A DNA stretch of 64,000 bases, taken from NCBI RefSeq assembly GCF_001887355.1, contig NZ_MPIN01000007.1:84888-148887 (forward strand), read 5' to 3'. How positions within the stretch are numbered: position 1 is the stretch's first letter; each line of letters begins with the position of its first letter. The notes under the pieces are model-generated. The model was not told where the DNA came from and searched no databases. It worked only from the letters and a program-made list of their open reading frames with translations. The stretch is from Cystobacter ferrugineus. Lineage in GTDB: Bacteria; Myxococcota; Myxococcia; Myxococcales; Myxococcaceae. Made by a program: the position numbers and the translations under genes. Positions 42,263 through 47,045 of the stretch are shown one piece after another.

Positions 42263-43198
42263 ATGACCCGTCCCCGTATCGTCTTCATGGGCACGCCCGA
42301 GTTCGCCGTGCCTTCCCTGGCCGCCCTCTTCGACATCGGGGACGTGGTGGCCGTCGTCACCCAGCCGGACAAGCCCAAGGGCCGAGGCCAGGCGCTCGCC
42401 ATCTCCCCGGTGAAGGCCTACGCGCTCGAGCGGGGTGTGCCGGTGTTGCAGCCCCAGAAGCTGCGCACCCCTCCCTTCTCCGAGGTGCTGCGCGAACTCA
42501 AACCCGATGTCGCCGTGGTGACGGCCTACGGGAAGATCCTCCCCAAGGACTTGCTGGAGACGCCCGCGCGCGGGTGCCTCAACGTGCACGCCTCGCTCCT
42601 GCCGCGCTTCCGGGGGGCCGCCCCCATCCAGTGGGCCATCGCCCATGGGGACACGGAGACGGGCGTGGCGTTGATGGTGATGGACGAGGGCCTGGACACG
42701 GGGCCGGTGCTGGCCGAGAAGCGGCTGCCCATCGCCCCGGACGAGACGAGCGCCACCCTGCACGACAAGCTGTCCACGCTGGGCGGAGCGCTCCTGCGCG
42801 AGTACCTCCCGGCCTACCTGCGCGGCGAGCTGACGCCGGTGCCGCAGCCCTCCGAGGGCATGGTGCTCGCGCCCATCATCCACAAGGAGGAGGGCAAGCT
42901 CGACTTCTCCCGGCCCGCGGTGGAGCTGGAGCGGCGCCTGCGTGCCTTCACCCCCTGGCCGGGCGCCTTCACCACCCTGGAGGGCAAGCTGTTCAAGGTC
43001 CATAAGGCCAGGGTGGGCACGGGACGGGGCGAGCCGGGCACCGTGCTGTCCGCGGACGCGCGAGGGCTGGAGGTGGCGTGCGCGGAGGGCTCACTGGTGC
43101 TGCTCGAGGTGCAACCCGAGGGCAAGCGGGTGATGCCCGTGGGTGACTTCCTGGCGGGACGCAAGCTCGCGCCGGGCAGCCGGCCGTTCGAGACGTAG
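42263..43198 (+). CDS. fmt: Methionyl-tRNA formyltransferase
   Basis: 311 residues, the normal length. N-terminal formyltransferase domain with the folate/catalytic hallmark NVHASLLPRFRGAAPIQWAI (Asn, His) and the Asp in MDEGLDTGP, and the start MGTPEFAVPSL. The C-terminal OB-like tRNA-binding domain begins around LRAFTPWPGAFTT. It formylates Met-tRNAi using 10-formyl-THF for translation initiation. The def partner is not adjacent upstream; the usual fmt-rsmB order is kept downstream but with a dehydroquinase-like gene inserted between. Confidence 0.96.
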   Translation: MTRPRIVFMGTPEFAVPSLAALFDIGDVVAVVTQPDKPKGRGQALAISPVKAYALERGVPVLQPQKLRTPPFSEVLRELKPDVAVVTAYGKILPKDLLETPARGCLNVHASLLPRFRGAAPIQWAIAHGDTETGVALMVMDEGLDTGPVLAEKRLPIAPDETSATLHDKLSTLGGALLREYLPAYLRGELTPVPQPSEGMVLAPIIHKEEGKLDFSRPAVELERRLRAFTPWPGAFTTLEGKLFKVHKARVGTGRGEPGTVLSADARGLEVACAEGSLVLLEVQPEGKRVMPVGDFLAGRKLAPGSRPFET

Positions 43199-43210: not shown

Positions 43211-44134
43211 ATGGGCAAGAGGCTGTTGGTGCTGCATGGGCCCAACCTGAACCTGTTGGGTGAGCGCGAGGGCCGCGAGGGTGGACGGTTCGCCGACCTC
43301 GACGCCGCGCTGAAGGCCCGGGCGGCCGCCCTGGGGCTGGAATTGACGGTGGTGCAGTCCAACCATGAGGGCGTCCTGCTCGACACCCTGCACGCCGAGC
43401 GCTCGCGCGTGGAGGGCGTGGTGGTGAGCCCCTCGAGCCTCTTCGGCTCGTACCCGTTGCGCGACGCCCTGGAGGCCATCGGGCTGCCCGCGCTCGAGGT
43501 GTACCTGGAGGCGCTCGGCGAGCGCGAGTCCGTGGTGGCCGAGGCCTGTGCCGCCACGCTCGAGGGGGAGGGGTTCGATTCCTACCTCCAGGCCCTGGAG
43601 CGCTTCGCGAGCGGAGACCTCACCGGCGAGTCCTCCGGGGAGGACGAAGGCGACGAGGAGGCCGAGGAGGCCGAGGCCGACGAGGAGGCGCTGGAGGACG
43701 AGGTGGCCGAGGAGCCCGTGGGGCTCGCGAAGACGCTGGGCCGCCGGGGCTCGGGGGCGAAGGCTCCGGCCGCGGCCCCTGCCTCGGGCTCACGCAAGAC
43801 GCTGGGCCGCAAGGTGGTGGAACTGGCCGTGCCCCCCGCGTCCGTGAAGACGCTGGGCCGCAAGAGCCCGCCGGCCGCGCCCTCGGAGGACGTCCTCTCC
43901 CGGGCGCTGGTGCGGAGCAGGATCTCCGACCGGCTCGCCGGACGCCTGTCTCCCGCGGACCTGGCCACCTGGGCGCGCTCGTGGTGGACGCGCGTCCAGG
44001 GAGGCGCCCCCACGGAGACGGGCCAGCGCGAGCTGTTGGAGGACATCCTGCAGCGGCTCACCCTCGCCAACATCCCGGCGACCCGCATGTCCGAGACGGA
44101 GTTGGTGGATTGGATGACCCGGCTGGAGGGGTGA
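43211..44134 (+). CDS. Degenerate type II dehydroquinase fused to an acidic linker and unknown C-terminal domain
   Basis: 307 residues. Residues 1-~112 have the type II 3-dehydroquinate dehydratase fold (LLVLHGPNLNLLGERE, VVQSNHEGVLLDTLH, LRDALEAIGLPALEVYLEAL), but the catalytic Tyr of the REPxxYG loop is replaced (GREGG) and the catalytic His of the xTHTS motif is absent (SLFGSYPLRDA). So it is probably not an active dehydroquinase. Residues 144-169 are almost all Glu/Asp/Ala. Three KTLGR(R/K) repeats follow at 174-179, 196-201 and 213-218. The C-terminal ~85 residues are helical (DLATWARSWWTRVQGG) and unrecognised. It sits between fmt and rsmB with gaps of 12 and 10 bp, so a role linked to translation or rRNA is plausible. 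Confidence 0.8.
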   Translation: MGKRLLVLHGPNLNLLGEREGREGGRFADLDAALKARAAALGLELTVVQSNHEGVLLDTLHAERSRVEGVVVSPSSLFGSYPLRDALEAIGLPALEVYLEALGERESVVAEACAATLEGEGFDSYLQALERFASGDLTGESSGEDEGDEEAEEAEADEEALEDEVAEEPVGLAKTLGRRGSGAKAPAAAPASGSRKTLGRKVVELAVPPASVKTLGRKSPPAAPSEDVLSRALVRSRISDRLAGRLSPADLATWARSWWTRVQGGAPTETGQRELLEDILQRLTLANIPATRMSETELVDWMTRLEG

Positions 44135-44144
44135 GAGGCACTTC

Positions 44145-45464
44145 ATGAACGCACGCGCCATCAGCATCCAGATCCTCAGCCGCGTCCGCGCCACGGATGC
44201 CTACCTCAACGTGGTGCTCGACACGTTTCTCTCGGAGTCGCCTCCGGCGGATCCCCGGGACGCGGGGCTCATCACCGAGCTCGTCTACGGCGCCACGCGC
44301 CGCGAGCTCGCGCTGGACTACGCCATCACCCGCTTCGCCGACCGCAAGCTGGAGGCACTGGAGGACAAGGTGCTCGCGGCGTTGCGCGTGGGCGCCTACC
44401 AGCTCTTCTACACGCGGGTGCCGGCGCGCGCCGCGGTGGCCGAGACGGTGCAGGCCCTCAAGGACGTGGGGCTCACGCGCGCGGCGGGGTTCGCCAACGC
44501 CATCCTGCGCAAGCTCGCCGCGCTCCCCGCGCAGCCCCTGCCCTCCGAGGAGGACCTGGTCGAGTTCCTGTCGGTGCGCGAGAGCCACCCGCGCTGGCTG
44601 GTGGAGCGCTGGCTGCGCCAGTTCGGCCGGGAGCGCGCCGAGGCGATGCTCGTCGCCAACAACCAGACGCCCGCCGTGGTCATCCGTGCCAACCGCGCGA
44701 AGGTGACGCGCGACGCGCTGCTCGAGCAGTTGCGCGAGACGGGGCTGGAGGCGCGCCCCACGCCGGTGTCCCCGGTGGGTATCATCCTGCCTCCGGTGGG
44801 CCGGGTGGAGGACGTGTACGGCTACGCCGAGGGCCTGTGGCAGGTGCAGGACGAGGCGGCGCAGCTCGTGGGCGTCTACGGCGACATCCCCGACACGGCG
44901 CGCGTGCTGGATGCGTGCGCGGCGCCGGGGGGCAAGGCCTGCCACCAGGCCGAGACGCACCAGGTGGTGGCCACGGATCTGCACGCCAACAAGATGCGGA
45001 AGATCCTCTCCGAGGCGAAGCGCCTGGGCCTCACCGAGCGCCTGCGCGCCGAGGTGCACGACGCGACCGAGCCCTGGCCGGAGGCCTGGGGCGAGTTCCA
45101 CGCGTTCGTGGTGGACGCGCCGTGCTCGGGCCTGGGGACGCTGCGGCGGCACCCGGAGCTGCGCTACCGGCGCAAGCCGGAGGACCTGGGGCGGCTGGCG
45201 GTGTTGCAGCGGCGCATCCTGGAGAACTGCCAGGAGGCGGTGCCCCCGGGCGGTCTGCTCGTCTACGCGGTGTGCACCCCCGAGCCCCAGGAGGGGCAGG
45301 ATCAGGTGGAGATGTTCCTGCGCAGCCACCCGGAGTGGACGGCGGAGCCCCCGGTGCCGCGCGAGGGCGTGAAGTTGCCGCTCACCCAGGCGTACCTGCG
45401 CACCCTGCCGGGCCCCGAGGGCTGGGACGGCTTCTTCGCCGCGCGCCTGCGCAAGCTGTACTGA
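44145..45464 (+). CDS. rsmB: 16S rRNA (cytosine-967-C5)-methyltransferase
   Basis: 439 residues. N-terminal NusB-like helical domain (ARAISIQILSRVRATDAYLN, ITELVYGATRRE, ANAILRKLA), then the SAM-dependent methyltransferase fold with motif I VLDACAAPGGKACHQAE, Asp in VVATDLHANK, the nucleophile/proton motif DAPCSGLGTLRRHPE and the second Cys in VYAVCTPEPQE (usually STCS). GAGAGG precedes the ATG, 10 bp after the previous stop. It methylates C967 of 16S rRNA during 30S assembly. Last gene of the fmt operon; convergent with the pseudokinase gene 7 bp away. Confidence 0.94.
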   Translation: MNARAISIQILSRVRATDAYLNVVLDTFLSESPPADPRDAGLITELVYGATRRELALDYAITRFADRKLEALEDKVLAALRVGAYQLFYTRVPARAAVAETVQALKDVGLTRAAGFANAILRKLAALPAQPLPSEEDLVEFLSVRESHPRWLVERWLRQFGRERAEAMLVANNQTPAVVIRANRAKVTRDALLEQLRETGLEARPTPVSPVGIILPPVGRVEDVYGYAEGLWQVQDEAAQLVGVYGDIPDTARVLDACAAPGGKACHQAETHQVVATDLHANKMRKILSEAKRLGLTERLRAEVHDATEPWPEAWGEFHAFVVDAPCSGLGTLRRHPELRYRRKPEDLGRLAVLQRRILENCQEAVPPGGLLVYAVCTPEPQEGQDQVEMFLRSHPEWTAEPPVPREGVKLPLTQAYLRTLPGPEGWDGFFAARLRKLY

Positions 45465-45471
45465 ACTCGCC

Positions 45472-46323
45472 TCAGCGAGGCGGGAGCACCAGCGGATCCG
45501 GCGGCTCGGGCTGGTAGTTGTCCGGCGGCGGGGACACGGGGGTGGGCAGGGTGTTGAGGATGGGCAGGAGGGCGTCGAGCGCCTCGGTGGCGTCGCCGAA
45601 GCGCTCGTGCGGTGCCGGGGCCGTGGCCCGCGCCGCCCAGGACTCCCAGCGTCCCTTCCAGGCTCCATCCCGGCGCGAGGCCAGCATGTCGCGCAGGATG
45701 CGCCCGAAGGCGAAGACATCCGTGGACGCGGGCAGGGGCCCCTCTTCCTTCCACTCGGGCGCGAGGTAGTCCGCGCCGCCCTCGGGAGGCTTGAGCCAGC
45801 CCGCGGCGTGCGTCCGCCGGAAGTGCTCCAGCCCCATGTCGAGCACGCTCAGCCGCGCGCCCGCGGGCCCCGAGGCGACGAGCACCCGCGAGGACCGCAG
45901 CCGTCCATGCACGAGGCCCGCGTTCCGGGCGGCGGTGAGTGCTCCGGCCAGTTGCCGCGCGAGCGCGCGCAGGTCGGGTAGATCGACTCCTATTTCGTGC
46001 AGTCCCCTCAACATGGACGGCAGGGACTCCCCGCTCCACCAGGGGCGTACGAGCCACAAGCCCTCCCGGGCCTCGTCGTACCCGGTGTCCACCACGGGCG
46101 CGAAGGCGGTGTGTCCGGTGCGTTGGGCCTCGCGCAGCACGTGCGTGAAGTGCTCCAGCTCGGCGCGGGAGGGGGCCCGGAGTGTTCGCCACAGGGTGAG
46201 CCGACCGGCTTCTCCTCCCTGGGTGGGCTCTACCTGACACTCCACACCGGGCTCGTCGCTGAGGGCGGGCCGGACGACCCGCCACGTCCCGCCAAGGATG
46301 TCACCTGGAATCAGTGGGCTCAT
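45472..46323 (-). CDS. Serine/threonine pseudokinase
   Basis: 283 residues of a protein-kinase fold lacking catalytic residues. There is no VAIK Lys (the strand reads TLWRTLRA), the catalytic loop HRDLKxxN is HGRLRSS (139-145, Asp absent), and DFG is DMG in LDMG (161-164). The lower-lobe scaffold is kept: LAPEW for APE (188-191) and TDVFAFGRIL for the helix-F Asp (202). A Pro-rich C-terminal tail ends the protein; no transmembrane helix. It starts 110 bp from the divergent DUF2378 gene. A scaffold or sensor role is likely, since myxobacteria carry many Hanks kinases and some pseudokinases. Confidence 0.8.
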   Translation of the reverse strand: MSPLIPGDILGGTWRVVRPALSDEPGVECQVEPTQGGEAGRLTLWRTLRAPSRAELEHFTHVLREAQRTGHTAFAPVVDTGYDEAREGLWLVRPWWSGESLPSMLRGLHEIGVDLPDLRALARQLAGALTAARNAGLVHGRLRSSRVLVASGPAGARLSVLDMGLEHFRRTHAAGWLKPPEGGADYLAPEWKEEGPLPASTDVFAFGRILRDMLASRRDGAWKGRWESWAARATAPAPHERFGDATEALDALLPILNTLPTPVSPPPDNYQPEPPDPLVLPPR

Positions 46324-46433
46324 GGGAGTGAAGTGTAAACTGGATGAGGACCCTGGACGTGAGGGGTCCTCTTCAGGTGGAGTCCATCCCCGAACACGGG
46401 GTCTCGCGGTTCCCTGGTCACCCAACGAGCGAC

Positions 46434-47045
46434 ATGGAGCACGGCGCACAGCAGGAACTGGAGCGGCGACTGGACGTGATTCGTCCCGAGGACACCCTGC
46501 GGGGCTTCTTCTTCAACGGCGTGCTGGAGCAGGTGCGCCCGCTGGGTGACCCGGTCTCCTGGCGCCGCTGCGTCGAGGCGGCCGGCGGTGATCGGTTCAT
46601 GGCCTTCTTCAGCTACCCCATGGATTCCTTCATCCGGCTGCTCTACGCCGCGGCGAGCGTGCTGAGCGAGGGGCGCGGGGACTTCCGCACGGCCTTGTGG
46701 CACCTGGGGCGGGAAATGGTCCCGTACTACCTGGAATCCAGCGCGGGGCAGGTGCTGTTGCTGTTGGCCCGAGGGGAGCCGCGGTGGTTGCTCGAAGGAC
46801 TCCCCTCCGCCTTCCGGACGGCCGTCCGGCATGGCGAGTGCTCGGTCGCCTGGTTGGGACCGACCCAAGGCCGGCTGCTCTTCCAGGGCTGTACCCTGCC
46901 GGCCGAGTACTACGAGGGCGCGGTGCGGGGCGTCTTCGAGAGCACGCGCATCGCGCAGACCGTGGTCTGCGCGCGGCAGATCAACCTGCTCGACACGGAG
47001 GTGGATGTGTCCTGGGACAAGGAGAGACATGCGGCGGGTGGTTGA
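46434..47045 (+). CDS. DUF2378 (TIGR02265) family protein
   Basis: 203 residues; the ATG at 46434 gives the usual family length, while an in-frame ATG at 46344 would add 30 residues. Family features: DVIRPEDTLRGFFFNGVLEQV, WRRCVEAAGGDRFMAFFSYPMDSFIRLLYAAAS, a central helix and C-terminal beta strands (CSVAWLGPTQGRLLFQGCTLP; EYYEGAVRGVFESTRIA). DUF2378 is found almost only in myxobacteria, in many copies per genome, and has no known function; the fold recalls heme-NO/V4R-type ligand domains by its layout, which I infer only weakly. Its 3' end overlaps the hydrolase gene. Confidence 0.85.
   Translation: MEHGAQQELERRLDVIRPEDTLRGFFFNGVLEQVRPLGDPVSWRRCVEAAGGDRFMAFFSYPMDSFIRLLYAAASVLSEGRGDFRTALWHLGREMVPYYLESSAGQVLLLLARGEPRWLLEGLPSAFRTAVRHGECSVAWLGPTQGRLLFQGCTLPAEYYEGAVRGVFESTRIAQTVVCARQINLLDTEVDVSWDKERHAAGG

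Follow-up and report, generated by a model that had tools for sequence, protein, structure and literature searches.

The window, which is the whole 64,000-nucleotide stretch of DNA that we analyzed, comes from a genome of 12.05 Mb and encodes on its forward strand a 307-residue protein (43211-44134) in which an AroQ-like domain is fused to a long arm and a C-terminal four-helix domain. The coordinates, strand, and length of the gene were confirmed, and relatives of it were found. It starts 12 bases after the end of fmt, which encodes methionyl-tRNA formyltransferase (42263-43198, + strand; TIGR00460, 305 bits, over the cut-off), and ends 10 bases before the start of rsmB, which encodes the 16S rRNA m5C967 methyltransferase (44145-45464, + strand; NF011494, 381 bits, and TIGR00563, 322 bits, both over the cut-offs). 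Within the protein, all parts of which are read on the + strand, the AroQ-like domain spans residues 4-134 (43220-43612) and is followed by an acidic tract at residues 140-168 (43628-43714). Pattern matching then places KTLGR motifs at residues 174 (43730-43744, with R next), 196 (43796-43810, with K next), and 213 (43847-43861, with K next), and the C-terminal domain occupies residues 227-307 (43889-44131). In the predicted structure both domains are confident, while the arm between them, residues 141-224, mostly has a pLDDT below 50. Beyond rsmB, the window also encodes a protein-kinase-like protein (45472-46449, - strand), which scores under the Pfam Pkinase cut-off and just above the PF07714 cut-off, and a DUF2378/TIGR02265 protein (46344-47045, + strand) from a family of unknown function.

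An earlier, sequence-only reading of the locus held that the type II dehydroquinase fold is kept while the catalytic Tyr and His are gone, and both parts of this statement agree with our results. Residues 5-132 match PF01220 at 97.3 bits against a gathering score of 23.3, and the structural model resembles solved type II dehydroquinases (Foldseek, E 2.4e-11). Like type II AroQ (PF01220, TIGR01088), the fusion has the fold, the sequence homology, and the core residues; it differs in that the catalytic Tyr and His are absent, the lid loop is shortened, and the NCBIfam AroQ cut-offs are missed (best of five models 94.8 versus 130; TIGR01088 85.6 bits versus 169.85), as well as in the added arm and C-terminal domain and the location between fmt and rsmB. 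To examine individual residues, we aligned 60 fused rows with 27 AroQ proteins without the C-terminal domain; the fused rows represent 59 distinct proteins, because L010 and L095 are one gene. No AroQ row could be obtained from three fusions truncated by contig ends (L042, L044, and L056), and L073 and L033-L036 were excluded. Residues are numbered as in the M. tuberculosis enzyme, after excerpts of PMC6011038.

In the window protein, Gly, Phe, and Tyr align at Tyr24, His81, and His101, the lid loop is two residues shorter, and there is a one-residue deletion near His81. Tyr24 is found in none of the 59 fused proteins, whereas it is present in all 27 AroQ proteins without the extra domain. His81 and His101, likewise invariant in those 27, remain in 5/59 and 10/59 fused proteins, and Arg112 remains in 21/59 as opposed to 26/27. 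His81, His101, Ser103, and Arg112 are thus mostly gone, with replacements that differ by lineage. Kept more often are Asn12 (50/59), Asn75 (47/59), and Glu99 (58/59). At the position of Asp88, a residue that in type II dehydroquinases is contributed by the neighboring subunit, the 59 fused proteins have Glu (41), Asp (16), or Ala (2), and at the position of Arg19, the essential lid-loop residue, an Arg aligns in 37/59, on a shortened loop. The structural positions, namely, the Gly-Pro of GPN, E53, and Y131, are kept in 60/60 fused rows (one gene counted twice).

The five fusions that keep His81 (L039, L045, L055, L071, and L072) suggest, by comparison of the aligned residues, that the lid Tyr was lost early and the other catalytic residues later. 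Decay appears to have been gradual, because four of them (L039, L045, L071, and L072) retain His81, Asn75, Glu99, and His101 together, and these four may have weak activity or ligand binding. The frequent retention of Asn12, Asn75, and Glu99 would also fit a metabolite sensor, in which the decayed pocket binds dehydroquinate or a relative of it and signals the status of the aromatic pathway to translation. We regard such a sensor as quite unlikely, given the lineage-specific replacement of the four mostly lost residues and a lid loop that is shortened or deleted and, in the window model (residues 17-21), of low confidence.

A canonical-scoring AroQ besides the fusion was found in 9 of the 96 family genomes (the window genome G000, together with G004, G006, G032, G033, G045, G080, G081, and G082), with the calls in G004, G006, G032, and G033 made by score and frame length; two fusions are themselves high-scoring (165 bits in G044 and 154 bits in G048). 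A search for the type I enzyme with PF01487 gave no match in any of the 96. The scarcity of canonical-scoring AroQ and the empty PF01487 search speak for a residual or altered enzyme, in which the fusion would dehydrate dehydroquinate, or carry out some other reaction, through other residues. However, the PF01487 result is a false negative, as a divergent AroD-AroE is present, and when this is taken with the complete absence of Tyr24 from the fused proteins, we consider continued catalysis by the family highly improbable. The proposal that most Myxococcaceae are without a dehydroquinase was likewise rejected, since this AroD-AroE adjoins aroC, aroB, and aroA.

The bifunctional protein is nearly or wholly missed by PF01487. 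In the aroB cluster of G062 it has 423 residues (L127:7550-8821, - strand), with a shikimate dehydrogenase segment that scores 24.8 bits with PF08501, just below the cut-off of 27, and a type I dehydroquinase segment at 23.0 bits versus a cut-off of 22.2; it aligns across the junction with the plant bifunctional enzyme 2gpt. The window genome's own AroD-AroE (L128:7708-8955, - strand) has no PF01487 match. Of the 96 family genomes, 88 have a match to AroD-AroE (E <= 1e-8), which in a few cases is partial, and eight have none (G019, G043, G045, G048, G074, G081, G082, and G093). The His, Lys, Arg, and Gly-Gln positions, which we take to be the catalytic motifs of type I dehydroquinase, are kept in 13/13 full-length loci aligned (L134, which is partial, was left out, and L133, L136, L137, and L143 are without a match).

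In the window genome, this AroD-AroE (G000:C13) is accompanied by an ordinary AroQ (G000:C28; L001:1495-1947, + strand). The latter type is sporadic in the family. In the tree, the window genome's copy does not join the majority of AroQ proteins from its order but groups with AroQ from outside the order (L050, L087, L090, and L093), so it may have been gained later. The sequence-only reading had named the absence of another dehydroquinase gene as a result that would contradict it; we found two. Judged by gene content, the dehydroquinase step is probably covered by other genes in the family genomes. AroD-AroE is not the sole replacement, because G045, G081, and G082 have a decayed fusion and another AroQ with no AroD-AroE match. 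For G156 and G157, which lie outside the family, neither the P0001 search, whose sole match is the fusion, nor the AroD-AroE search returned a second dehydroquinase.

We call the window's family Myxococcaceae because the named relatives of the gene belong to Myxococcaceae and their kin. Matches to P0001 (E <= 1e-10) occur in 88/96 family genomes, the match in G080 being an ordinary AroQ, and outside the family, two sister families contribute three further genomes with fusions (G155, G156, and G157). A scan of named genomes gave 26 loci with the C-terminal domain, in Archangium, Corallococcus, Myxococcus, Pyxidicoccus, Hyalangium, Citreicoccus, and uncultured relatives. Because the proteins of 16 named loci are identical to those of other loci, we counted distinct proteins (59 in the residue counts and 58 in the motif counts) and, for gene order, 67 (of 84) distinct genes. 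For four loci (L055, L058, L064, and L041), tblastn with the C-terminal domain gave no match at 1e-5, and these were called fused by sequence or place; L041, which is truncated by a contig end, was left out of the motif counts. A single open frame runs from AroQ into the C-terminal domain in 59 of the 60 fused rows, and the remaining one, L041, ends with its contig. Candidate stand-alone C-terminal domains in G045, G047, and G087 were rejected: these short frames sit at contig ends and are therefore cut-off fusions. Counting the window protein, 58 distinct proteins whose sequence could be followed through to the C terminus share the fused architecture, which confirms that it goes beyond chance.

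In a tree of 48 rows, hand-picked for spread from the 87 aligned and including some long branches, three of them fused, one branch separates the fused from the other rows with support of 97/97. Among 12 close pairs, with few changes in each, dN/dS is 0.02-0.40 for the AroQ domain, 0-0.48 for the C-terminal domain, and 0.09-1.78 for the linker; the AroQ and C-terminal domains are both under purifying selection. A fast-evolving linker and a lost catalytic site are what one would expect of a decaying passenger gene kept for operon spacing alone. Selection on both domains, the single open frame in nearly every fused row, and matches in 88/96 family genomes (one, in G080, to ordinary AroQ) have already largely refuted this reading, and we give it the smallest probability among those considered. 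With catalytic residues lost family-wide, two other dehydroquinase genes in the window genome, and purifying selection, the earlier suggestion of a repurposed pseudoenzyme is well supported, and the fused protein is very likely a pseudoenzyme.

The three KTLGR(K/R) repeats reported for the window protein are conserved among relatives. The pattern K[TS][LIM]G[RK] occurs in 58/58 fused proteins and in 0/27 other AroQ proteins, at one to six copies per arm and at least two copies in 52 of the fused proteins. The last copy is the most widely kept, with K213, T214, and G216 invariant in 18/18 alignment rows. The Glu/Asp run, which the sequence-only reading also listed, is present in the window protein and is not a defining part: a stretch of at least 10 D/E in 20 linker residues is found in 9/58 fused proteins, namely, the window protein, five near relatives, and the distant L043, L060, and L062, and 7 further fused proteins have 7 or 8 D/E in such a stretch. 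The conserved parts of the fusion are the motifs and the C-terminal domain rather than the acidic run. In one relative (L055:1795-3546, - strand), the fused protein reaches 584 residues; its linker is very long, and its C-terminal domain is divergent.

We also considered whether KTLGR is simply widespread in the proteome and rejected this, as a DNA pattern for it (with Arg as CGN only) gave 20 matches in the genome versus 16 in the reversed control. Among the genes around the 20 matches, only the fused gene (3) and the gene for a 187-residue protein (2) have more than one. The latter is a small helical protein whose basic tail contains KSIGRK twice (L148:1072-1635 and L234:5536-6099, both + strand). 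It has a match in 92/96 family genomes; its close relatives have the motif in 30/30 cases and two copies in 29/30, and 16/20 distant relatives have the looser K[TSV][LIVM]G[RK]. In the four genomes read (G000, G006, G011, and G062), its gene lies just upstream of what we take to be a GrpE-like gene and dnaK. The likeness of the motifs may be partly a convergence of basic tails, because the tail of this protein is Lys/Ala/Pro-rich.

The arrangement around the fused gene recurs in relatives, as does the placement between fmt and rsmB noted before. fmt lies upstream on the same strand in 59/67 distinct fused genes (within 150 bp in 54/67), and rsmB lies downstream in 66/67 (within 150 bp in 62/67), with an overlap of exactly 4 bases in 37/67. 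Contig ends and short flanks account for part of the missing neighbors, and fmt is more distant in some remote rows. At L165, from Archangium lansinium, ∼3.4 kb separates the fused gene from rsmB. It is this gene order, by itself, that suggests a link of the fused protein to translation or ribosome assembly.

The sequence-only reading went further and proposed that the alternating acidic and basic low-complexity parts bind rRNA or ribosomal proteins. This idea is weakened by the presence of a strong acidic run in only 9/58 fused proteins, though these include distant lineages; the KTLGR motifs are conserved. A related possibility is a nucleic-acid adaptor: arranged around an AroQ oligomer core, the basic KTLGRK arms would bind rRNA or tRNA together with the helical domain and help RsmB or Fmt. 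The place between fmt and rsmB, the frequent 4-base overlap, and the occurrence of the same motif in the Lys/Ala/Pro-rich tail of a second protein are in line with such an adaptor. However, the motif retains T/S, a hydrophobic residue, and Gly, which gives it the look of a recognition peptide rather than of generic charge, and RNA-binding families over the cut-off were not found. We therefore view a nucleic-acid adaptor as possible, if doubtful.

The C-terminal domain is predicted to be a four-helix bundle (pLDDT 93, pTM 0.82), and, in agreement with the earlier reading of an unknown domain, nothing exceeded the cut-offs for it in Pfam, NCBIfam, or PDB sequence searches; the best E in a PDB profile search was 0.66. 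Effector-associated domain 2 (EAD2, PF19956) scores 16.2 bits for the window domain versus a gathering score of 23.8, matches 3/24 members at E <= 10 (best 5.6e-4), and is over the cut-off in 0/11 genomes searched. Foldseek gave no match to the model at E <= 0.001, from which newness of the fold does not follow. The best VIA-align match is the colicin D immunity protein ImmD, likewise a four-helix bundle and similar in size (11% identity, rmsd 3.2 across 79 residues, Z 6.1). The comparison concerns the fold only; this Z is similar to that of designed helical bundles and within the range of chance, the Foldseek E is 5.3, and PF09204 (colicin D immunity) is over the cut-off in 0/11 genomes searched.

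Taken together, our best reading is a scaffold with short linear motifs, and we see about an even chance that a displaced AroQ now serves as a multivalent scaffold that is co-produced with Fmt and RsmB. On this proposal, an AroQ copy in the fmt-rsmB operon would have been released from catalysis once another dehydroquinase took over, which would be the divergent type I AroD-AroE in most Myxococcaceae and, in a few, a separate AroQ encoded at another locus. We infer this course of fusion and displacement, as we do a role in translation. The AroQ fold would have been kept, probably as an oligomer that displays many disordered arms; type II dehydroquinases are described, in excerpts of PMC6011038, as dodecamers of trimers. 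Each K[TS][LIM]G[RK] copy could then be a short motif recognized by a protein kinase or by a shared partner, and the four-helix domain at the end of the arm may bind a second partner. A bolder version, which we hold to be unlikely, makes K[TS][LIVM]G[RK] a tag for a myxobacterial reader, either a kinase or a binding protein, that would join the pseudo-dehydroquinase and the GrpE/DnaK-linked helical protein into a multivalent hub of translation and folding on the displaced enzyme shell. For the scaffold as for the hub, a common short motif offers a direct handle for finding the partner.

A close parallel is Candida albicans Aro1, in which, according to excerpts of PMC9074039, the dehydroquinase domain is inactive yet kept and the type II enzyme Dqd1 compensates. 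In both systems a dehydroquinase domain inactivated by active-site substitutions is retained and an unrelated type of dehydroquinase does the step, but the roles are reversed: Aro1 has the dead domain of type I and its compensating enzyme of type II, whereas the fusion has a dead type II domain, probably replaced by the type I AroD-AroE. For the arm, the motifs, and the helical domain of the fusion, those excerpts describe no counterpart in Aro1 (PMC9074039). No myxobacterial pseudo-dehydroquinase was among the matches listed in a search of open-licence PubMed Central literature. The family appears to offer a clear natural example of an enzyme that was displaced from its pathway and retained in a new role, and intermediates of the decay can still be seen in living lineages. 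It also calls for caution in annotation, as PF01220 matches in Myxococcaceae are mostly not dehydroquinases and the likely real enzyme, the divergent AroD-AroE, escapes a Pfam genome search. Among the canonical AroQ proteins, two (L051:2022-2918, 299 residues, and L053:1986-2876, 297 residues, both - strand) carry an extra C-terminal domain that to us looks GAF-like, and the long canonical AroQ of G081 adjoins aroB.
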